From positions 70,057 to 134,056 of the forward strand of contig JAPPMU010000049.1 in assembly GCA_028873965.1 (NCBI GenBank): a stretch of DNA of 64,000 nt. The letters run 5' to 3'. This document shows positions 13,199 to 64,000 of the stretch, one piece after another. This DNA comes from Chloroflexota bacterium. Its GTDB lineage: Bacteria; Chloroflexota; Dehalococcoidia; Lucifugimonadales; UBA3495. The notes under the pieces are model-generated. The model saw only the letters and a program-made list of their open reading frames with translations. It did not search any database and was not told the origin of the DNA. The translations under genes were made by a program, and so were the position numbers. Each line of letters begins with the position of its first letter. Position 1 is the first letter of the stretch.

Positions 13199-13216
13199 CC
13201 GCCACAGGGTAATTTC

Positions 13217-13308
13217 GTCAGAATCAGGATTTACTGGATTTCAGGATTTTCGGGATTACACTTCCCTAATCCTGCCAATTTAATAATCTTGAAAATCCTG
13301 CTTCTGAC
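13217..13308. repeat. Repeat family A, copy 1 (short form)
   Basis: A 92-bp palindromic element. The outer arms are GTCAGAATCAGGATT and AATCCTGCTTCTGAC. Internal segments (GGATTTCAGGATT / AATCCTGCCAATTT) pair as inner arms. It lies between the Uma2-type gene and the SDR. Confidence 0.85.
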
Positions 13309-31258: not shown

Positions 31259-31287
31259 GTGTCACCTCCTGCTATCTCCTGGGGTTT

Positions 31288-31379
31288 GTCAGAATCAGGA
31301 TTTGCCGGATTTTAAGATTTCCAGGATTACGTTCCTGCAATCCTGCCAATCCTATAATCTTGAAAATCCTGCTTCTGAC
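31288..31379. repeat. Repeat family A, copy 2 (short form), inside the ilv-leu operon
   Basis: A 92-bp palindrome with outer arms GTCAGAATCAGGATTTGCC and CTTGAAAATCCTGCTTCTGAC. It is nearly identical in layout to copies 1 and 3, and lies between ilvC and leuA. Confidence 0.88.
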
Positions 31380-32421: not shown

Positions 32422-32464
32422 GCTGTTTTGTCCTTGTTGCCTTTCCGTCGTTACCATGCAATTT

Positions 32465-32557
32465 GTCAGAAGCAGGATTTGCCGGATTTCAGGATTTTCA
32501 GGATTACGTTAGCTAAATCCTGTCAATCCCAATAATCTCGAAAATCCTGCTTCTGAC
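32465..32557. repeat. Repeat family A, copy 3 (short form), inside the ilv-leu operon
   Basis: A 93-bp palindrome with arms GTCAGAAGCAGGATTTGCC and CTCGAAAATCCTGCTTCTGAC, between ilvH and ilvC. Together with copy 2 it brackets ilvC within one transcript. Confidence 0.88.
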
Positions 32558-34936: not shown

Positions 34937-35243
34937 AAAAAATCCCGACCCCGAAGGGACGGGTTGTGATTCCCGCGGTACCACCCTTCTTTTCCGCGCT
35001 CCGCTCATTGCCTGGAATATCCGCGGCGAGCGCTCCACGCGAAACTCTTTGTACACAGCCGTTATCGGAGCCGACCCGCTCGCCCTACTCACGCTATCGT
35101 CCCCGTATCAAGCATGGGGTGACGTTGCTTCAGCCGAGACGCTCCGGGGCGAGTTCAGCAATTCGGGCCCCCGACTTCCACCAACCGTCGGTTCTCTATG
35201 CGGCCTTCCCCGCCTACTACTCCCCATCACCGCGATTTAACTG
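34937..35243 (-). promoter_or_regulatory. T-box riboswitch leader of ilvB-ilvH-ilvC-leuA
   Basis: On the minus strand the conserved antiterminator bulge reads GGGTGGTACCGCGG (near 34972-34987), followed by a terminator stem CCCGTCCC-TTCGGGG-TCGGG and TTTTTT (34937-34942). Stem I features are upstream: GATGGGGAGTAGTA, then AGAGAACCGACGGTTGG-TGGAAGTCGG. A CTC (Leu) in GCTGAACTCGCCCCGG is a candidate specifier codon, though this is uncertain. Uncharged tRNA would stabilise the antiterminator and turn on the operon. Confidence 0.9.
35099..35124. repeat. Family B hairpin inside the T-box leader
   Basis: CGTCACCCCATGCTTGATAC-GGGGACG (minus strand) matches the dispersed hairpin seen at 10807 (CGTCACCCCGTACTTGATAC-GGGG). 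It lies between stem I and the antiterminator, where stems II and III normally sit. Confidence 0.7.
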
Positions 35244-36873: not shown

Positions 36874-37220
36874 TCAGAACAGAGCCCTCACCGCGGCCAG
36901 GATTTCCGCGGTTTTGGCGTCGGTGAGGCGGGCGACGGTATTGCCGAATCTGCTTTCGGCAAAGGTAGCCAGCCGGTCCGGGCGCACTTTGCTGTCCGGG
37001 TACAAACTTCCGGCCACCAAATCAGCCGCGCTGATGGGTATCGCCCTGCGGTGCGCTATCGGGCTTCAGGGCTTGTGCAAAGTCATTGTCAGAAGCAGGA
37101 TTTGCCGGATTTTGAGATTTTCAGGATGTTCGTAAATCCCGAAAATCCTCTAATCATGGTAATCCTGCTTCTGACAATTCCCGCCGGGATAGACTTTGCA
37201 ATGACGATATCGCCAACCAT
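36874..37220 (-). pseudogene. MazF/PemK toxin gene split by a family A repeat
   Basis: From ATG 37220 the frame reads MVGDIVIAKSIPAG, a MazF-like N-terminus, then enters repeat A copy 4 (37088-37175) and stops. After the repeat, in another frame, comes PIAHRRAIPISAADLVAGS, LYPDSKVRPDRLATFAES, to a stop at 36874, which is a MazF-like C-terminal half. About 40 central residues are missing. The start lies two bases after the small gene at 37223, its likely antitoxin. The toxin is surely inactive. Confidence 0.65.
37088..37175. repeat. Repeat family A, copy 4, inside the broken mazF
   Basis: An 88-bp palindrome with arms GTCAGAAGCAGGATTTGCC and GGTAATCCTGCTTCTGAC. The host DNA on the two sides carries an imperfect inverted repeat (TTGCAAAGT / ACTTTGCA). 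Confidence 0.85.
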
Positions 37221-37756: not shown

Positions 37757-40700
37757 GGATAGAGGCCGCGCTCTTTGAGGTCTTCCTTCAGGCGGGCGAA
37801 ATCCTCATCGGGCATGACAGAGCGGCCGGCGGCTCGCACTTCCTGCTCGTACTCCAACAACTCCACCAATACCTCGGGACGCAACTCCAGCCCCTCGTCC
37901 GGATCAATCTCCGTCCACCTATCCAACTCGTAATCCGTAATCCGATACGTCTTCACGCTCACCGTGCACACCCGCCGCAGCAGGTCGATGACGCGCTCCT
38001 TGTGGTCGGCGAAGCGGTAGGTGTTGAAGCGCTCGCGGATGGTGGGGTCGCGGGGCTTGCGTTCCTTGTACTGGTCGAGGACCCACTCCAGGGCGGAACG
38101 GCTGCCCAGCTCGTACCACCACGCCTCATTGGGGACGCCGGCCAGCGTGGTCTGCTCGTCCAGCCGGATGATGCCCCGCTCCTTATCCGCCCGCAGTATC
38201 ACCCTCGGATTGCGCCTATCCCCTTCATCCCGTTTATCCCGTTCATCCCTGTCAATTTCCACCCGCTCCAGAGGCCACGGCTCGGCCGTCTCAAAGCCCA
38301 GGTGCAGGTCCAGCAGTTCCCGACCCTTGCCGGCCCACCACGCGAAATCCTGCTGGAAATAGACTCGCGGAAACTCCCGCCGCAGGTCGATCTCGAACCG
38401 CTGGCGGTAGGCGGGGTCGTGGAGCATGGCGTACACGTAGGCGAAGATGTCCTCGGCGGTGATGCCGTCGTCGCCGTAATGCTCGCGGAACCGGCGCAGA
38501 CCCCACTGGGTGATGTTGCTGACCCGCTCGCCGTCGGGCGTGTAGCGGTAGAGGGGGAGGCATTGGTTGTCGCCAACGAAATGCAGGTCAACCAGTTTGT
38601 TTGATGCCAAGACGTAGAAAGACCGATACCTGGCAGCGAAATTGATTGTTGGGTTATCTACAATTTGCTGGTGCGGGAAAATTTGAGGCATCTGATAGCG
38701 GCGATGGGTAACGATGGGCGCGTAGTAGCAATGTTTGGCAACGAATGGCCGGTACATGGCACGGGTCATATTTGCGGTTGAAAAATGCACTGCATCGCCT
38801 TGCACCAGATGGCTTTCCAGTTCGGATGTCCATTTTATGGACCTGTCGATCCAATCACCTAAAGCAGTGGGGGCCGGCTTTTCTTTTTCATACCGTTGCA
38901 GTTCTTCCCTATACACATTTGAAAAGAACAGCACTTTGTTCGAGAGGGCGTCGAAATCGAAATCGTAAGTCCATTCATCACGGTTAGTGGCGATACCAAG
39001 CGAGAACAACCCGAACACCGCCTGCTCATCAGCGGCCGTCTTGGCCAGTTTGGTCTCTCGGTTGGCAAGCGGCAGCAATTCCTCAAATCGGCTATTGGAT
39101 TGGTCAAGCCAGTAGGACTTCGAATCGGGAACGATACTTTCAAACCCGATGCTGTCCAGCGGGGCATCACGCAAATAGGCCAGTTTTTCCGAAGCGAGTT
39201 CGGCATCCTCGCGTCGTGCGTAATGGATGTTGCACTCGCCCATCTTGGCCTTTTCGCGCACGAAGAAACCGATGGCGACGCCGGTTTGTATGCCGAACAC
39301 GTTGTGAGTAGTGCCGGATATTTTCGGGTTGCGTCGCACGTCCGAACCAAGGTCGAGCACATAAATATCGGTGAATTCCTGCGCCGCTAGCTGTCGAAAA
39401 CCGTCATCTTGCCGAGTATCCAGATAGGCCCGATTGGTGATAAAGCCGATGATGCCGTCGTCGGCCAGGCGGTCCGACGCCCAGCGGATGAACCGCTTGT
39501 ACATGTCGTACTGCTTGGTCTTCTGGGCGGTGCTGGCGGCGATGTAGGTCTCGCTGATGCGGCGGTCGATGGCGGGATACTCGCGGTTCTTGTTGTTGTC
39601 GTTCTCGTTCTGCTGGTTGGCGTTGTAGGGCGGGTTGCCGATGATGACGGAGATGGCCTTTTCGTTCTGCTCCTGGACGCGGATCCAGTTCTCCTCGGAG
39701 ACGCCGCCCAGGTTGAAGGCGCCCTGGCGGGTGACCGCGCCGCCGCTGGCGCCCTGCCAGTCCATGTTGTCCAGGGTGTCCACGAAGCAGAGGTTGGGGA
39801 ACTCCAGGTAGCGGCCGGTGCGCTCCTTGTAGGTGTACTCGATGTTGAGGTTGGCGATGTAGTAGGGGAGGATCGCCACCTCGTTGGCGTGGATCTCGTT
39901 GCGGTACTTGTACTCCAGGCGGTCGGCGGGCAGGTGGTTGATGAGGCCGGTGATGAAGGTTCCGGTGCCGGTGGCCGGGTCGAGAATCTGCACGTTGTCA
40001 TCGGCCAGGGTGCGCCCGAAGTGCTTCTGCAGCAGGTGGTCCGTGCCGCGGATGATGAAGTCCACGACCTCGTTGGGGGTGTACACCACGCCCAGGCGGT
40101 CGGCGGCGGCAGGGTTGTAGGCCTGATAGAAGTCCTCGTAGATGGCCTTGAGGAACTGCTGCTTTTCGGCGTAGTCGGCGATCTCGTCGGCGGCGCGGCC
40201 GATGGCGCCGTAGTAGAGGCGGAGGCGGTCGATGGCCTCGCGGCGGGCGTCGCCGGTGAAGAAGGTGCTCTCCAGGGCGTCCAGCTGGCGGGCGACGTTG
40301 TTCTCGCGGTGGAACTGGTCCTCGGCGAAGACGCGCAGGAAAATGTCGCGGGTGAGGATGTGCTGCAGCAGCATCTCGCGCACGTCGGCGTCGGTGACGT
40401 CGGGGCTGATGGTCTGGCGGCAGAGGCTCAGGAAGAGGGCGGCGGCGGCCTGGTAGTCGGCGTTGCCGGCCTCGGCGTCGGCCACGGCCTCGCGGAGGCT
40501 CTCGAGGACGGCGGGCAGGTCGGCCTTGAACTGCTGGCGGGCCTGCCGGAACTCTTCGATTTCGGGCAGCTCGTAGTCCAGGAAGCGGCGGATGAGGCGG
40601 TGCAACTCGCCCGGGCGGGACATGTCGACGCGCATGGCGACGTTGCCGTTCTGGATGAGCACGGCGGTCTGGGAGTCCTCGAAGAGGATGTTGTCCCGGG

Positions 40701-43901: not shown

Positions 43902-43975
43902 GTCAGAAGCAGGCCCCGTATCAAGTACGGGTGACGTTATCTTCAAGATTTGCGGGTTAACAGGATTGGAGCCGT
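43902..43975. repeat. Chimeric family A/B repeat, copy 5
   Basis: It begins as family A (GTCAGAAGCAGG), is replaced by a family B hairpin (CCCCGTATCAAGTACGGGTG), then resumes with CTTCAAGATTTGCGGG and the AACAGGATTGG part of long family A copies. It appears to be one element inserted into another and then truncated. Confidence 0.6.
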
Positions 43976-43994
43976 TCCGTCGCGGGAGATCGAA

Positions 43995-44240
43995 ATGGAA
44001 CTGTACGAGTTGGATTGCATCATGCACGAACCCTGTGCAGACCAGGGGTGGCTTTACATGGCGGAGACGCCGGAGCTACCCGGGTGCAGGGCATGGGGAG
44101 AGACCGCCGCCAGCGCCCTGTCTGAGCTCGCTACGGTGGCTGAGCAATTCATTCTCTCCTACAAGGAGCGGGGCAAGCCTTTGCCCGAGGGGATAATCCG
44201 GTCCCAATCTGGCAAGGGACGCATCTCCATAGCCGTATGA
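43995..44240 (+). CDS. hicB: HicB-type antitoxin
   Basis: Encodes 81 residues from the ATG at 43995 with GGGAGA upstream. The pattern ELDCIMHEPCADQGWLYMAE, TPELPGCRAWGETAASALSE is the partial RNase-H-like HicB fold. The C-terminus (PEGIIRSQSGKGRIS) is short and has no clear HTH or RHH. It precedes hicA with a four-base overlap. Confidence 0.85.
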   Translation: MELYELDCIMHEPCADQGWLYMAETPELPGCRAWGETAASALSELATVAEQFILSYKERGKPLPEGIIRSQSGKGRISIAV

Positions 44241-44446
44241 CCTACCGGGAACTGACCAGGAAACTTAGAAGATTGGGATGCTCCTTTCACCGTCAGGCTG
44301 GGGGAGCGCACGAAATCTGGATCAACCCGGCCAATGACCGGGAAACCACGGTTCCAAGACACGGCAATCGGGATCTTGCGACGGGAACCATTCACGGGAT
44401 CCGCAGGGACCTGGGGATCAGCAGGCAGGAGTTTGACCGGGCATAA
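44237..44446 (+). CDS. hicA: HicA-type mRNA interferase toxin
   Basis: Encodes 69 residues. YRELTRKLRRLGCSFHRQAG, G-G-A-H-E-I-W is the dsRBD-like HicA fold with its catalytic His; VPRHGNRDLATGTIHGIRR follows. It cleaves mRNA when HicB is lost. Complete length. The order is antitoxin first. Confidence 0.87.
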   Translation: MTYRELTRKLRRLGCSFHRQAGGAHEIWINPANDRETTVPRHGNRDLATGTIHGIRRDLGISRQEFDRA

Positions 44447-44467
44447 AGCCGAGCTACGGATTTGGAC

Positions 44468-44502
44468 GGCAGCGGGATTGCCACGCTGCGCTCGCAATGA
44501 CA
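44468..44502. repeat. Family B-prime repeat
   Basis: GCAGCGGGATTGCCACGCTG followed by CGCTCGCAATGACAG is the short outer-arm form, upstream of argD. A TATAAT at 44524-44529 may be the -10 of argD. Confidence 0.6.
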
Positions 44503-44590
44503 GACCGGGGGCAGCCGGCGGGGTATAATGGCTCGTGCGTCGCGAGGACTGGCGGCGTTTACCTACACACTCACAGGGAGCGGATTTGTC

Positions 44591-45781
44591 ATGCCCAGCA
44601 ACGCTGAATACATTGCCATCGAGCAGAAGTACTATGCCCAGACCGTGCGCCGACGGCCGGTGGTCATCGTGCGGGGCGAGGGCTCTCGAGTGTGGGACGC
44701 CGACGGCAAGGAGTACATCGACTTCGTGGCCGGCTGGGCCGTAGACAACCTGGGGCATTGCCCGCCGGTGGTGGTAGAGGCCATCGCCCAGCAGGCGGCG
44801 ACCCTGATCCAGACGTCGAACCAGTTCTACACCCTGCCCCAGCTGGACATCGCCGCCATGCTCATCGACAACTCGTGCATGGACCGGGTGTTCTTCTGCA
44901 ACAGCGGCGCCGAGGCAGTGGAGGGCGCGCTGAAGCTGGCCCGACGCTACGGCAAGCTGCACAAGAACGGCGCCTACGAGGTCATCACCGCGTTCAACTC
45001 CTTCCACGGGCGGACGATGAACGCCGTGGCCGCCACCGGCCAGCCGCATTACCACGAGCTCTTCGAGCCCATCCCCGAGGGGTTCACCTACGTGGACTTC
45101 AACGACGTGGAGGCGGTGATGAACGCCACCACCGAGAACACCGTGGCCGTGATGGTCGAGCCGGTGCAGGGCGAGGGCGGGGTGAACATCCCCGACGACG
45201 ACTACTTCCAGCGGCTGCGGGCCTGGTGCGACCAGAACAACATCCTGCTGATCCTGGACGAGGTGCAGACGGGCATGGGTCGCCTGGGCAGCCTGTTCGG
45301 GCACCAGGAGTACGACGTTGAGCCGGACGTGATGATCCTGGCCAAGGGGCTGGGCTACGGCGTGCCCATCGGGGCGTTCCTGTCCAAGGAAAACGCCATG
45401 GCGCTGACCTACGGCGACCACGGCAGCACCTTCGGCGGCAACGCGCTGACCACCGCGGCGGCGGCGGCCGGCACGCGCTACCTGCTGGACAACGACGTGC
45501 TGGGCAACGTGAAGCGCATGGAGGTCGTGCTGAATGACAGGCTGAACGGGCTGAAGGCGCGCTATGGGTTCGTCGAGGAGATCCGGTGCAAGGGCCTGCT
45601 GGCCGCCGTGCAGTTTGACAGCGACATCATGCCGGCGGTGATGGACGCGGCGGAGGCGGCGGGCGTGCTGCTGAACGGGGTTAGGCCCAACGCGGTGCGG
45701 ATCATGCCGGCCCTGAACATCACCGAGGACGAGATCGACGAGGGCGTGAACCGGCTGAGCGAGGCGCTGGGGAACGTGTAG
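44591..45781 (+). CDS. argD: Acetylornithine-type class III aminotransferase
   Basis: Encodes 396 residues from the ATG at 44591. This PLP enzyme family exchanges amino groups on acetylornithine (arginine synthesis) and related substrates. Seen are FFCNSGAEAVEGALKLAR, the ILDEVQTGMGRLGSLFG cofactor region, the PLP-lysine in LAKGLGYGVPIGA, and the FGGNALTTAAAAA glycine-rich turn. argG lies 2 kb away, which supports an arginine role. A lysine or ornithine-type substrate cannot be excluded. Confidence 0.88.
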   Translation: MPSNAEYIAIEQKYYAQTVRRRPVVIVRGEGSRVWDADGKEYIDFVAGWAVDNLGHCPPVVVEAIAQQAATLIQTSNQFYTLPQLDIAAMLIDNSCMDRVFFCNSGAEAVEGALKLARRYGKLHKNGAYEVITAFNSFHGRTMNAVAATGQPHYHELFEPIPEGFTYVDFNDVEAVMNATTENTVAVMVEPVQGEGGVNIPDDDYFQRLRAWCDQNNILLILDEVQTGMGRLGSLFGHQEYDVEPDVMILAKGLGYGVPIGAFLSKENAMALTYGDHGSTFGGNALTTAAAAAGTRYLLDNDVLGNVKRMEVVLNDRLNGLKARYGFVEEIRCKGLLAAVQFDSDIMPAVMDAAEAAGVLLNGVRPNAVRIMPALNITEDEIDEGVNRLSEALGNV

Positions 45782-45875
45782 GCTTCCGTGGGGTTTGAGG
45801 CGACGCCGGCGGCGTTCCTGCGGGGATGCCGCCGGCGTCCACATAGGACATCCCTATCATCAAGGACGGTCCATC

Positions 45876-47477: not shown

Positions 47478-47502
47478 CGGGAGCGTTAGCCTGTCGTAAA
47501 TC

Positions 47503-47612
47503 GTCAGAAGCAGGATTTACGGGATTTTATGATTTTGCAGGATTGGGAACGCTACATCACAGAACGGTTCCCATCCTGGTAATCATCAAATCTTGAAAAT
47601 CCCGATTTTGAC
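47503..47612. repeat. Repeat family A, copy 6 (long form)
   Basis: A 110-bp element with arms GTCAGAAGCAGGATTTACGG and AATCTTGAAAATCCCGATTTTGAC, the right arm worn. An extra central hairpin (CAGGATTGGGAACG / CGGTTCCCATCCTG) marks the long form. Confidence 0.8.
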
Positions 47613-53638: not shown

Positions 53639-53679
53639 GCCGCCTCCTGCTCCCTCATGCGCACCTGCCTGCGTAAATC

Positions 53680-53788
53680 GTCAGAAGCAGGATTTACATG
53701 ATTTTATGATTTGACAGGATTGGGAGGTCTCCATCGCGGAACGATTCCAATCCCGTTATCCCTGAATCTCGAAGATCCTGCTTCTGAC
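53680..53788. repeat. Repeat family A, copy 7 (long form)
   Basis: A 109-bp element with arms GTCAGAAGCAGGATTTAC and GAAGATCCTGCTTCTGAC, plus the central long-form hairpin (CAGGATTGGGAGG / CGATTCCAATCCCG). Confidence 0.85.
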
Positions 53789-58077: not shown

Positions 58078-58569
58078 ATGGCGCTGCCGATACCGCCATC
58101 GGGCGAGCCGGACATTTACGAAGCCCTGGCCAATGCGCTGCTTGAGGCCAGCCGGGCGCATTTGGAGGCATCCGGGTATTTTGAGGCCGCCCTGCCGCGG
58201 CTGCGACAAGCACGTGAGCTGGATGACCAGTGCCAGATACTCAGAGAAGAATCATTGGCTATGGTCAACCGTTCCGCAGATCTGATGCTGGAGGTCGGGT
58301 CGCTGGCGCGAGCCGATCTCCAGGGCAATATTGCGCAGGCGCTGGCGCTGATGTCCGACGTCAAGGAAATTGACCGCCGCGCCCGCGCGCTGTCGGCCGG
58401 CGCGTCCGCGCTGCTGTGGCAGGCTTCCGGCGAGGCAGAGCAGGGCCTGTCCATTTGGCGTGAAGGGACGGATGCGCTCCGGATTGGCCTGGAACGAGCC
58501 GCTACCTTGTTACAGGAAGCGAGCAATCATCAAGCCAACGGCGACAACCCGGACCCTCCCTCCGCCTGA
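58078..58569 (+). CDS. Helical protein upstream of nadB
   Basis: Encodes 163 residues, almost all helix, with long heptad stretches (ALANALLEASRAHLEASGYF, LRQARELDDQCQILREESLA). No membrane segment. It ends 16 bases before nadB and may share its transcript. The sequence does not suggest a known family. Confidence 0.55.
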   Translation: MALPIPPSGEPDIYEALANALLEASRAHLEASGYFEAALPRLRQARELDDQCQILREESLAMVNRSADLMLEVGSLARADLQGNIAQALALMSDVKEIDRRARALSAGASALLWQASGEAEQGLSIWREGTDALRIGLERAATLLQEASNHQANGDNPDPPSA

Positions 58570-58585
58570 ACGACGCCAACGTTCG

Positions 58586-60283
58586 TTGACCGACGCACTG
58601 GCCGGCGGCCCAGCCGGATACGACTACATCATCATCGGCAGCGGGATCGCCGGGCTGAACACGGCGCTGCTGGCGGCGGAGCACGGCAGCGTGCTGGTGG
58701 TGACCAAGGGACGCATCGACGACTGCAACAGCCGCTACGCCCAGGGCGGTATCGCGGCGGCCATCGGGCCGGGGGATTCCGCGACGCTGCACCAGCGGGA
58801 CACGCTGGACGCCGGCGCCGGCCTGTGCGATCCCGAGGCCGTGGGCGTGCTCACCGGGCAGGGGCCGGACAGCATCGCCGGCCTGATCCGGTGGGGCGTG
58901 CCCTTCGATACCATCCACGGGCAGATCGCGCTGGGGCGTGAGGGCGCGCACAGCATGCCCCGCATCCTGCACGCCGGGGGCGACGCCACGGGGATGCACA
59001 TCGAGGATACGCTGGCCGACCGGGTGCGCGCGTCGGAGCGGATCACGGTGCTGGAGTACACCCACGCCATCGGCATCTGCGTGGAGGACGGAGCGGTGAC
59101 AGGGGTGGAGGTGATGAGCGTTGGCGACGAGATTGCCACGGCGCAAGCGCCTCGCAATGACAGCAGCGGGGGCGACGAGATTGCCACGCGGTTCGACAGG
59201 CTCACCGTGAGCGGGTCTGTTGGCAATGGCAGAGGGGCCGGCGAGCGGCGGGTGATCAATGGCGACGTGGTGGTGGTGAGCACCGGCGGAGCAGGACGGC
59301 TGTATCGCTACACGACCAACCCCGAGGTGGCAACCGGGGACGGGGTGGCCCTGGCGTACCTGGCGGGCGCGGAGGTGATGGACATGGAGTTCTACCAGTT
59401 CCATCCCACGGCGCTGTGGCTGGAAGGCGCGCCCACGTTCCTGCTGTCGGAGGCCATGCGCGGCGAGGGGGCGATACTGCGCAACGCGGACGGCGAGCCG
59501 TTCATGTCCGCGTATCATCCCATGGCGGACCTGGCTCCCCGGGACGTGGTGTCGCGGGCGATTGCGGCGGAGATGGAACGGGCCGACGGGCGGCCGGCGA
59601 TGCTGGACATATCGCACCTGCCGGCGGCCACGGTGACCAGCCGGTTCCCGACGATCTACGCCGAGTGCCGGCGGTACGGACTAGACATCACCCGCGAGCC
59701 GATTCCCGTGGCTCCGGCGGCGCACTACATGATGGGCGGCGTGCGCATCGACACCTGGGGACGCACCAACATCGCGGGACTTTACGCCTGCGGCGAGGCG
59801 GCCTGCGCGGCGGTGCACGGGGCCAACCGGCTGGCCAGCAACTCGCTGCTGGACACGCTGGTGTTCTCGCGGCGGCTGGTGGAGGCGACGCTGGGCAACG
59901 CGCCGGAGTACGCGCCGGCGGATGACGATGACGGCAACCTGCGGACCGGGCTCACGAACCGCGCCATGGTGTGCGCCACGGTGCCGGAGCGGGGGAAGGA
60001 GAACCTGCAACACCTGATGTGGCGCAACGTGGGCATTGCGCGCAACGGCACGCGGCTGCTGCTGTCGGCGCGGATCCTGAACCTGTGGCAGCGCCAATTT
60101 TACGCGGGGTCCGGGCCGCAACCGGAGACGGCGGCAGACTTCGAGCTGCGGAACATGCTGGTGGTAGCGCGGCTCATCGTAGAAGCGGCGTTGCAGCGGC
60201 GGGAGAGCCGGGGGGCGCACTACCGCGAGGACTTTGCAGAAGCGTCGGAGGAGTGGCGGAGGCACATTGTGCTGCGGGGGTAG
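58586..60283 (+). CDS. nadB: L-aspartate oxidase with a repeat-derived insertion
   Basis: Encodes about 565 residues if TTG 58586 is the start (no ATG is better placed). It oxidises aspartate to iminoaspartate for NAD synthesis with FAD. Seen are YDYIIIGSGIAGLNTALLAA (FAD), SRYAQGGIAAAIG, FYQFHPTALW, and EPIPVAPAAHYMMGGV with HGANRLASNSLLDTLVF. Residues about 180-217 (GDEIATAQAPRN... RFDRLTVSGSVG) are encoded by dispersed repeats and lengthen the usual 530-540 residues. nadA and nadC are not in the window. Confidence 0.9.
   Translation: MTDALAGGPAGYDYIIIGSGIAGLNTALLAAEHGSVLVVTKGRIDDCNSRYAQGGIAAAIGPGDSATLHQRDTLDAGAGLCDPEAVGVLTGQGPDSIAGLIRWGVPFDTIHGQIALGREGAHSMPRILHAGGDATGMHIEDTLADRVRASERITVLEYTHAIGICVEDGAVTGVEVMSVGDEIATAQAPRNDSSGGDEIATRFDRLTVSGSVGNGRGAGERRVINGDVVVVSTGGAGRLYRYTTNPEVATGDGVALAYLAGAEVMDMEFYQFHPTALWLEGAPTFLLSEAMRGEGAILRNADGEPFMSAYHPMADLAPRDVVSRAIAAEMERADGRPAMLDISHLPAATVTSRFPTIYAECRRYGLDITREPIPVAPAAHYMMGGVRIDTWGRTNIAGLYACGEAACAAVHGANRLASNSLLDTLVFSRRLVEATLGNAPEYAPADDDDGNLRTGLTNRAMVCATVPERGKENLQHLMWRNVGIARNGTRLLLSARILNLWQRQFYAGSGPQPETAADFELRNMLVVARLIVEAALQRRESRGAHYREDFAEASEEWRRHIVLRG
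59122..59206. repeat. Composite repeat inserted in frame in nadB
   Basis: GACGAGATTGCCACGGC...CCTCGCAATGACAG is a B-prime unit. A second GACGAGATTGCCACG and GGTTCGACAGGCTCACCGTG-AGCGGG follow; the last is a palindrome-like repeat known in form from many genomes. The frame stays open throughout. Confidence 0.75.
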
Positions 60284-61717: not shown

Positions 61718-61776
61718 TACAGGATAAACAGGATGAACGGGATGAACGGGATGAACGGGATGGACAGGATGCGCAG
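61718..61776. repeat. Family C repeat (GGGATGAAC units)
   Basis: CAGGATAAACAGGATGAACG, then GGATGAACGGGATGAACGGG and ATGGACAGGATG: about five units of the 9-10 base core. Intergenic here; inside a gene at 38203. Confidence 0.8.
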
Positions 61777-61786
61777 GCGAGGGAAC

Positions 61787-61895
61787 ATCAGAAGCAGGAT
61801 TTACCGGATTTTATGATTTGACAGGATTGGGAGATATCTATCACAAAACGGTCCCGATCCTGATAATCCGTAAATCTTGGGAATCCTGATTCTGA
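61787..61895. repeat. Repeat family A, copy 8 (long form)
   Basis: About 109 bp, with arms ATCAGAAGCAGGATTTACCGG and TTGGGAATCCTGATTCTGAC and a central hairpin around GGGAGATATCTATC. Confidence 0.8.
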
Positions 61896-61899
61896 CGAT

Positions 61900-62238: not shown

Positions 62239-62339
62239 TTGGGGCCTCGCGTGGTGATGGTCTCTGTTTTGATGCTATGGGGCGAAATCTCGATAGTCAA
62301 TGCCTGGAGAAAAGGCGTGCGTACCCGCCTTTGTAAATT

Positions 62340-62449
62340 GTCAGAAGCAGGATTTACGGGATTTTATGATTTGGCAGGATTGGGAGATCTCCATCATGGA
62401 ACGGATCCAATCCTGATAATCCTCGAATCTTGAAAATCCTGCTTCTGAC
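62340..62449. repeat. Repeat family A, copy 9 (long form)
   Basis: A 110-bp element with perfect outer arms GTCAGAAGCAGGATTTACGG and CTTGAAAATCCTGCTTCTGAC, extended by GTAAATT / GATTTAC outside. Confidence 0.88.
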
Positions 62450-62539: not shown

Positions 62540-64000
62540 ATGACGCCGATGATGCCTACCATATCGCCGGGGGAGTTTGTGGGTCGCTGGCGGGATGCCG
62601 GGTTTGGAGAGCGGCAGGGGGCGCAGTCGTTCTTCAACGACCTGTGCGGGCTGGTGGGCCACGCGACGCCGGCGGCGTTTGGCGATCCGGAGGCGTACAC
62701 CTTCGAGAAGGCGGTGCCGGGCGGTTTCGCCGACGCATATTACGAGGAGCATTTCGGCTGGGAGTTCAAGGGGCAGGACGCGCAGCTGGACGGCGCATTC
62801 GACCAGCTCCTGCGCTACCAGGTGCACCTGAAGACGCCGCCGCTGCTCATCGTGTCGTCCTTCGAGACGATACGGATCCAGACCAACTTCCCGGGGATGG
62901 AGACGGCGCGCTACGACGTCGGCATCGGGGAATTCGAGGAGCCGGCGCGGCTGGAGTTGCTGCGGGACGTGTTCTTCGCGCCGGCCCGGTTCCGCGAACG
63001 GCTGCGCTCGGTGGACGCGGTGACCCGGGAGACGGCGGCGGTGTTCCAGTCCATCGTGGTGGACATGGAGCAAGCCTCCTCCGTCACCCCGCACCAAAAC
63101 TCCAAAGACAACGTCACCCCGCACTCCGATGCGGGGCCGGAGCGGCTGGCCCGCTACCTGAACCAGCTGGTGTTCTGCCTGTACGCGGAGGACGCGGGGC
63201 TGCTGCCCGATGGCCTGTTCACCCGCATCGTGGCGCAGCACTACCGCAGTCCGGAGACCTTTGATCGGGCGGTGCGGAGCCTGTTCGCGCAGATGGCCAC
63301 GGGCGGGTTCTCGGGGGCGGACGAGATCGCGCACTTCAACGGCGATCTCTTCAACGTGGTGGACACCGTGGAACTGAGCACCACGGCCCTGCAACGGCTG
63401 GGCGAGGCGTGCGAGCGCAACTGGCGGGACATCGAGCCGTCGATCTTCGGGACGCTGTTCGAGCGGGCGCTGGACGCATCCAAGCGGGCGCAGACGGGGG
63501 CGCACTACACCGGCGCGGACGACATCGAGCTGGTGGTGGAGCCGGTGGTGATGACGCCGCTGCGCCGGGAGTGGGAGGCGGCGCGGGGGGAGATTGAATC
63601 GTCAGAAGCAGGATTTTCGGGATTTGAAGGATGGACAGGATTAGGGGATCTTCCTCCATTGGACGGCTCCAATCCCGATAATCCTCCAAATCCGGTGCAT
63701 CCTGCTTCTGACAATTCACCGGCGCGGCGACGGCTGGAGGCGTTCCGGGAGCGGCTGGCGTCGGTGCGGGTGCTGGATCCGGCGTGCGGGAGCGGGAACT
63801 TTCTGTACATCGCGCTGAGGTCGCTTTTGGATTTGGAGAAGGAGGTGATTGACTACGCGGCGGCGCGGGGGTGGCTGGGGCTGACGCCGCGGGTGCAGCC
63901 GGACCAGATGCTGGGGCTGGAAATCAACCACTACGCGGCGGAACTGGCGCGGACGGCGCTGTGGATCGGCTACATCCAGTGGCACCAGGCCAACGGGTTC
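62540..64000 (+). CDS. MmeI/YeeA-like class I DNA methyltransferase, cut by the window edge
   Basis: At least 487 residues, open to the right end; ATGs at 62540, 62549 and 62552. Visible are the helical N-terminal part (FFNDLCGLVGHATP, LRYQVHLKTPPLLIVSSFE), ATGGFSGADEIAHFNGDLFN, IEPSIFGTLFERAL, motif I LDPACGSGNFLYIAL and LGLEINHYAAELARTALWIG. Type IIL and YeeA-like enzymes have this order. Two repeats interrupt it in frame (63095-63140 and 63601-63712). The catalytic NPPF/Y motif lies beyond the edge. Confidence 0.85.
   Translation, partial: MTPMMPTISPGEFVGRWRDAGFGERQGAQSFFNDLCGLVGHATPAAFGDPEAYTFEKAVPGGFADAYYEEHFGWEFKGQDAQLDGAFDQLLRYQVHLKTPPLLIVSSFETIRIQTNFPGMETARYDVGIGEFEEPARLELLRDVFFAPARFRERLRSVDAVTRETAAVFQSIVVDMEQASSVTPHQNSKDNVTPHSDAGPERLARYLNQLVFCLYAEDAGLLPDGLFTRIVAQHYRSPETFDRAVRSLFAQMATGGFSGADEIAHFNGDLFNVVDTVELSTTALQRLGEACERNWRDIEPSIFGTLFERALDASKRAQTGAHYTGADDIELVVEPVVMTPLRREWEAARGEIESSEAGFSGFEGWTGLGDLPPLDGSNPDNPPNPVHPASDNSPARRRLEAFRERLASVRVLDPACGSGNFLYIALRSLLDLEKEVIDYAAARGWLGLTPRVQPDQMLGLEINHYAAELARTALWIGYIQWHQANGF
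63095..63140. repeat. Family B hairpin in frame in the methyltransferase gene
   Basis: AACGTCACCCCGCACTCCGA-TGCGGGGCCGGA matches the inner hairpin at 10807. It encodes about 15 residues (DNVTPHSDAGPE) and leaves the frame open. Confidence 0.7.
63601..63712. repeat. Repeat family A, copy 10, in frame in the methyltransferase gene
   Basis: A 112-bp long-form element with arms GTCAGAAGCAGGATTTTCGG and GGTGCATCCTGCTTCTGAC. The host frame runs through it (SSEAGFSGFEGWTGLGDLPP and so on) and continues into RRRLEAFRERLASVRVLDPA with no stop. Confidence 0.9.

Follow-up and report, generated by a model that had tools for sequence, protein, structure and literature searches.

Palindromic repeats inserted in frame within protein-coding genes are best known from Rickettsia, which has raised the question whether they are peculiar to a small parasite genome. 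An earlier note on a 64,000-nucleotide stretch of Chloroflexota DNA (the window) proposed that a 112-bp palindrome of the same general kind lies, without breaking the reading frame, inside a DNA methyltransferase gene near the end of the stretch. The questions raised by this locus are what the element is, how it came to lie within the gene, and whether the protein segment that it encodes is used or simply tolerated.

The host gene occupies positions 62543..64000 of the forward strand, which hold 486 of its 964 codons, and continues beyond the window to L009:3994, the full ORF being L009:1100-3994. The complete 964-aa protein contains the MmeI_N, MmeI_hel, MmeI_Mtase and MmeI_TRD domains, all above Pfam cut-offs. 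A profile of its homologues matches the MmeI structure (PDB 5hr4) with an E-value of 1.1e-90 (hmmsearch), and the predicted fold of the part within the window matches the same structure with an E-value of 3.5e-8 (Foldseek). The methyltransferase gene of the earlier note can thus be identified as an MmeI-like Type IIL restriction-methyltransferase gene, with the domain order and fold of MmeI. The ATG start was chosen by homology, and an upstream GTG start is possible. Two short motifs delimit the region of interest: GAHYT (63497..63511, +, located by alignment), which we take to be methyltransferase motif X, and DPACGSGNF (63776..63802, +, read from the sequence), which is methyltransferase motif I. 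The highest-identity named relatives of the gene come from SAR202/Dehalococcoidia MAGs of the Chloroflexota. Comparison with eight homologues, linker codons omitted, gave dN values of 0.16-0.24, dS values of 0.65-1.5 and dN/dS ratios of about 0.13-0.25; since dN is well below dS with the linker excluded, the gene is maintained, being intact and under purifying selection. The downstream stretch (L009:6685-9190) has the look of a prophage, with genes that by eye resemble those for a protease and a capsid protein, and the first ORF of this stretch carries another SEAGFSGFEG sequence.

The element at 63601-63712 (+), GTCAGAAG...CTTCTGAC, is an imperfect palindrome of exactly 112 bp, at the coordinates originally reported. 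The inverted repeat runs beyond this core, from 63595 to 63718, with arms of 48 nt that are 79% complementary. Folded as DNA, positions 63597-63719 reach -28 kcal/mol, whereas 200 dinucleotide shuffles of them gave -14.6 +/- 2.6 (z -5.2, with 0/200 equally good), and two other copies folded as single-stranded DNA gave z values of -8.0 and -6.3. The GC content of the element is 51%, against 68% in the surrounding gene. No match above Rfam cut-offs was found at the element, the only such matches in the window being one T-box and one tRNA, and a known RNA family was therefore rejected as its identity. The T-box leader (RF00230, 97.8 bits) lies at 34952-35239 (-). The first 16 bases of the element had no match in the open-licence PMC literature, to which literature searching extended.

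The element belongs to a dispersed repeat, designated family A, with ten profile HMM matches in the window, one of them partial. On the forward strand, the copy in the MmeI-like gene is accompanied by one just upstream of the gene (62337..62449), by others at 61786..61896, 53676..53788 and 47499..47612, and by short forms at 37086..37175, 32463..32557, 31287..31379 and 13215..13308. Close to one end of the partial copy (43902..43985, -), a palindrome of the CGTC type is nested. A further dispersed repeat, GGATGAACGGGATGAACGGGATG..., occurs at 61731-61780 and 38199-38248, one of these places directly adjoining a family A copy. The window together with 35 stretches from the same genome yielded 55 non-overlapping family A matches by profile HMM. 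Their lengths (93-116 bp overall) fall into two forms of about 93 and 113 bp, and the copy in the MmeI-like gene, 116 bp by its HMM match, is of the long form. A DNA search of its own genome, in which 40 of 124 candidates were scored, gave as its closest relative another long copy with 83% identity. Matches to this long element were found in its own genome and in 9 of 13 congeners, while outside the genus 2 of 26 genomes had a single weak match apiece; the short form matched in 11 of the 14 genomes of the genus, its own included. Family A is therefore largely confined to one genus of SAR202-type Chloroflexota, which agrees with the suggestion that this lineage has a palindrome family of its own.

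The position of the insertion was examined in an alignment of 86 homologue rows (84 distinct), for which 80 of 176 relatives were taken. In most of these homologues the linker between motifs X and I is empty and scar-free, and in the nearest ones it is short and of near-constant length from the GAHYT helix to the helix before DPACGSGNF, as in L094, where it reads EIEGLLDGDDNPPARARLEGF. In the studied protein, EIE is followed by 40 element-derived residues (SSEAGF...ASDNS) and then by PARRRLEAF. This segment, SSEAGFSGFEGWTGLGDLPPLDGSNPDNPPNPVHPASDNS, comprises residues 353-392 (63599..63718, +), as delimited by alignment with the 83 other distinct homologues and by pLDDT. The earlier note had put the gain at about 38 residues; that residues were added is correct, whereas the figure needs revision, since the element supplies 40 residues but replaces about 9 ancestral linker residues, for a net gain of about 31 relative to L094. 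AlphaFold models the segment mostly as a loop with pLDDT of 50-56 between helices 325-359 and 393-407, against a mean of 88 for the protein. In the insert-bearing homologue L084 (mean 88) the corresponding loop 346-380 has pLDDT of about 40-50. The insert is thus predicted to cap a helical hairpin that lies between motifs X and I, at a place where the linker of MmeI itself (5hr4) differs in being shorter than the family profile. The same residues do not recur in other phyla among the aligned homologues (80 of 176 relatives). The idea that such elements can create protein segments holds for a segment in the frame of a maintained gene, and would not in itself imply a function.

The recurrence of insertions at this loop was observed directly. 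Family A occupies the linker in 6 of 86 rows, corresponding to five of 84 distinct genes from four species, and is read in the same frame in all of them (profile HMM), beginning SE[AS]GF.... The carriers, assigned to genomes by coordinates and identity, are the gene under study (L009), L078 and L095 (both in genome G009), L084 (G013) and L085 (G005); the last four have short forms and the studied gene the long one. The linkers of L104 and L079 contain an unrelated repeat, family B (VIAR..., CHAALAMT), of which many more copies occur elsewhere in the loci examined. A B-like palindrome fills the linker of L124, from Anaerolineae, and recurs at dozens of other positions of the same genome. L119, from Opitutia, and L114, from one further genome, contain other palindromes, each present at several further places in their genomes. 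The linker of L081 has an in-frame insert of 147 nt with no strong inverted repeat, and no repeat copies of it were found among the sequences compared.

When the top three inverted repeats per gene were collected from the 84 distinct genes and duplicates were removed by hand, 9 of the 14 repeats scoring at least 14 fell in the linker, which makes up 3% of gene length on average and 7.4% at most. The binomial probabilities are 3e-11 and 1e-7, respectively, an enrichment that is somewhat inflated, insert-bearing linkers being longer by construction. Of the other five repeats, L124 has two, and L138, L140 and L128 have one apiece. That of L138, at 2522-2606 of the MmeI gene, is a strong palindrome with a score of 19.5, close to a further position at which length varies, equivalent to residue ~867 of the studied protein. 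The linker loop thus appears, judging from the alignments, to have been filled more than once, in congeners by family A and in other species and phyla by palindromes unrelated to it.

The explanation that we consider very probable is that these palindromes are mobile but non-autonomous hairpins, among which selection has kept those that entered permissive loops in frame, and that they work in the manner of Rickettsia palindromic elements (RPEs). Family A would be such a hairpin, 93-116 bp long and multiplied in a single SAR202-type genus, one copy of which would have entered the MmeI-like gene at the codons of the turn between the helices on the motif X and motif I sides. The host would read through it, producing a hydrophilic, probably disordered loop of about 40 residues and leaving the fold intact. 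Selection would remove most insertions into genes, with in-frame, stop-free ones in permissive loops persisting, and the repeated hits by family A and unrelated palindromes may be due to an unusual tolerance of this particular loop. We infer transposition as the route of entry, translation of the segment, and tolerance in place of function.

The number of events bears on the most serious alternative, a single ancestral insertion of family A in this MmeI subfamily that was later mostly lost or moved by recombination. The five carriers are scattered over the gene tree and form no clade, although the branch of L095 is long and its place unsure. Parsimony with equal costs gives five gains, but a history of one gain and nine losses becomes cheaper, and favours the ancestral insertion, once a gain costs at least twice a loss. 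Two features of the elements point in the same direction: the L084 element is closest, at 84%, to that in the L078 MmeI gene, above any other copy, and L009 and L078 have a common 5' junction. However, the empty sites are scar-free and retain LLDxDD-like linker residues that are missing in L009 and L078, so that loss of the element would require their restoration. In addition, the studied copy is long and its nearest relatives are long copies (83% in its own genome, among the candidates scored), while the other four carriers have short ones, and an ancestral insertion leaves family B and the palindromes of other phyla unexplained. A single ancestral origin is accordingly unlikely, if still to be taken seriously. 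We conclude from these relationships that the loop has received at least three separate acquisitions in Chloroflexota (family A, family B in the genus and the B-like palindrome in Anaerolineae), with more in other phyla.

Evidence on mobility comes from the surroundings of the copies. Many family A copies lie inside a larger palindrome with arms CTCAYGCGTACCCAGTTTG..., and the same arms are found around family B and, in one case, around neither core (L170:2187-2236; L157:8716-8890; L160:46-62; L017:616-632). Such nesting speaks for mobility and hints at a preference for hairpin loops. Target-site duplication was not detected, there being no excess of matching flanking k-mers (k 2-9) in the 43 copies that have both ends. 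The Y1 transposase (PF01797) was found in 0 of 14 congeneric genomes versus 5 of 14 control genomes; mobilisation of the REP/RAYT kind was rejected on the absence of this RAYT-type transposase from the 14 genomes of the genus. A stronger version of mobile hairpins would make the loop between motifs X and I a preferred, and not just tolerated, landing site for unrelated mobile palindromes across phyla, with the elements or the DNA or single-strand structure of the site steering insertion, and host protein loops forming a regular niche well beyond Rickettsia; we regard this extension as doubtful.

The MmeI-like gene contains a second in-frame stretch, of a repeat designated family C (GTCACCCCGCAC...GATGCGGGG; residues 179-198; 63077..63136, +), recognised in the homologue alignment. 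It lies in the loop between helices 157-181 and 197-218 with pLDDT of about 60, contains a CGTC-type palindrome, and is missing in most homologues, although L079 and L104 have pieces resembling it in this loop; matches to family C outside MmeI genes are few and short. Residues 179-198 are a probable second repeat insertion in this gene. The nadB ORF (58547-60280) carries in frame a copy of family B together with a further repeat, family D (59123..59227, +), its TIGR00551 match being above cut-off in two stretches that flank the insert (about residues 193-227). Among congeners the nadB site is empty in four, and three have other repeat combinations at the same turn, one of them in another frame. 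An ORF with a family B piece at 44162-45853 (-) has no Pfam match and was set aside as probably spurious.

Most family A copies are placed differently. Only 2 of 52 copies in the studied genome lie in a frame that stays open for 80 or more residues to either side, namely those in the MmeI-like gene and in a putative ORF of L169; family A is therefore not specialised in genes, and copies that survive within them are exceptional. Searching with a profile built from the five inserted peptides gave 20 more stretches, the most regular being a stop-free N-terminal family A copy, in the same frame, before an ORF labelled phage-terminase-like by eye, in five species (G000, G001, G010, G012 and G013, at L204, L206, L207, L208 and L213). 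We did not include this case among the insertions within proteins, since translation could start past the element, at the GTG of VRFASDTLGV.

The frame statistics also bear on the idea that the segment is functional, either in tuning how the nuclease and methyltransferase domains are coupled, in binding a partner, or by co-option after insertion. The frame used in the MmeI-like gene is open in just 11 of 27 orientation-frames for the short form and 21 of 117 for the long form among the 76 family A copies outside MmeI, so that its stop-free state here might point to use, as might the agreement of the five genes in reading frame and hydrophilic composition. Yet a stop-free frame is explained by the need for the gene alone, and the segment is absent from most close homologues, varies in length and residues among carriers, is predicted to be disordered, and is replaced by unrelated sequences at the same place in other homologues, all of which make a function improbable. 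Still less probable is a role of the hairpin in mRNA or DNA, as in attenuation, terminator-like pausing or a recombination site, with the coding frame incidental; the hairpin is strong and most copies lie outside open frames, but the site is also taken by other families and by plain sequences, and its position matches a protein loop and not the start or end of the gene. The chance of an assembly artefact or a decaying pseudogene is very small despite the draft state of the 3.88-Mb MAG and its contamination estimate of 7.3%, for the copy is unique in its own genome (the next at 83%, among the 40 of 124 candidates scored), the linker is also filled in MAGs of other species, by family A in those of three of them, and the entire ORF is open and under purifying selection.

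The mobile-hairpin explanation has its closest parallels in known bacterial repeats. As described in the sources cited, RPEs measure about 150 bp, form several families and often lie in frame within genes (PMC10969869, PMC3733652), nearly half of the copies in R. conorii being inside ORFs (PMC10969869). Family A is likewise an imperfect palindrome of RPE-like size, dispersed in many copies, with an in-frame, fold-compatible insertion in a gene of known family. It differs from RPEs, in which a large ORF share is a feature, in that its copies are mostly outside genes, and the present case concerns another phylum, with several unrelated families inserted into a single loop of the same protein family. 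Family A may thus be said to work like an RPE, the likeness being one of behaviour.

Intragenic REPs of the GTAG and CGTC types are also described as in-frame palindromes in several genera (PMC3733652, 2013), where recB of X. campestris and X. oryzae is reported to contain different REPs at about the same site. According to the same account, CGTC-type REPs are without a dedicated transposase (PMC3733652). Family A copies often start with CGTCAG, resembling this type, but are much longer, at 93-116 bp versus 20-40 bp, and recurrence across phyla at an MmeI loop does not figure in the account of in-frame REPs given there. Within the scope of that account, the example that comes closest to the present hot spot is recB of Xanthomonas. 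The small repeats QMITE1 and QMITE2 of Coxiella burnetii, occasionally in frame in genes, are described as MITEs with terminal repeats and direct repeats (PMC5896051), unlike family A, which lacked a target duplication in the 43 copies.

In-frame palindromes are thus already known from RPEs and REPs, and the insertion described here is a variant of that kind. It places such insertions also in a different phylum, in a lineage with larger genomes, where 64 kb of DNA encode at least two proteins that carry them, and palindromes of several unrelated families appear, in several phyla, to occupy one and the same protein loop. The filled and empty homologues of an enzyme with a solved relative would provide a comparative system in which mere tolerance can be tested, and the same system may serve the search for what moves palindromes in a genus without RAYT.
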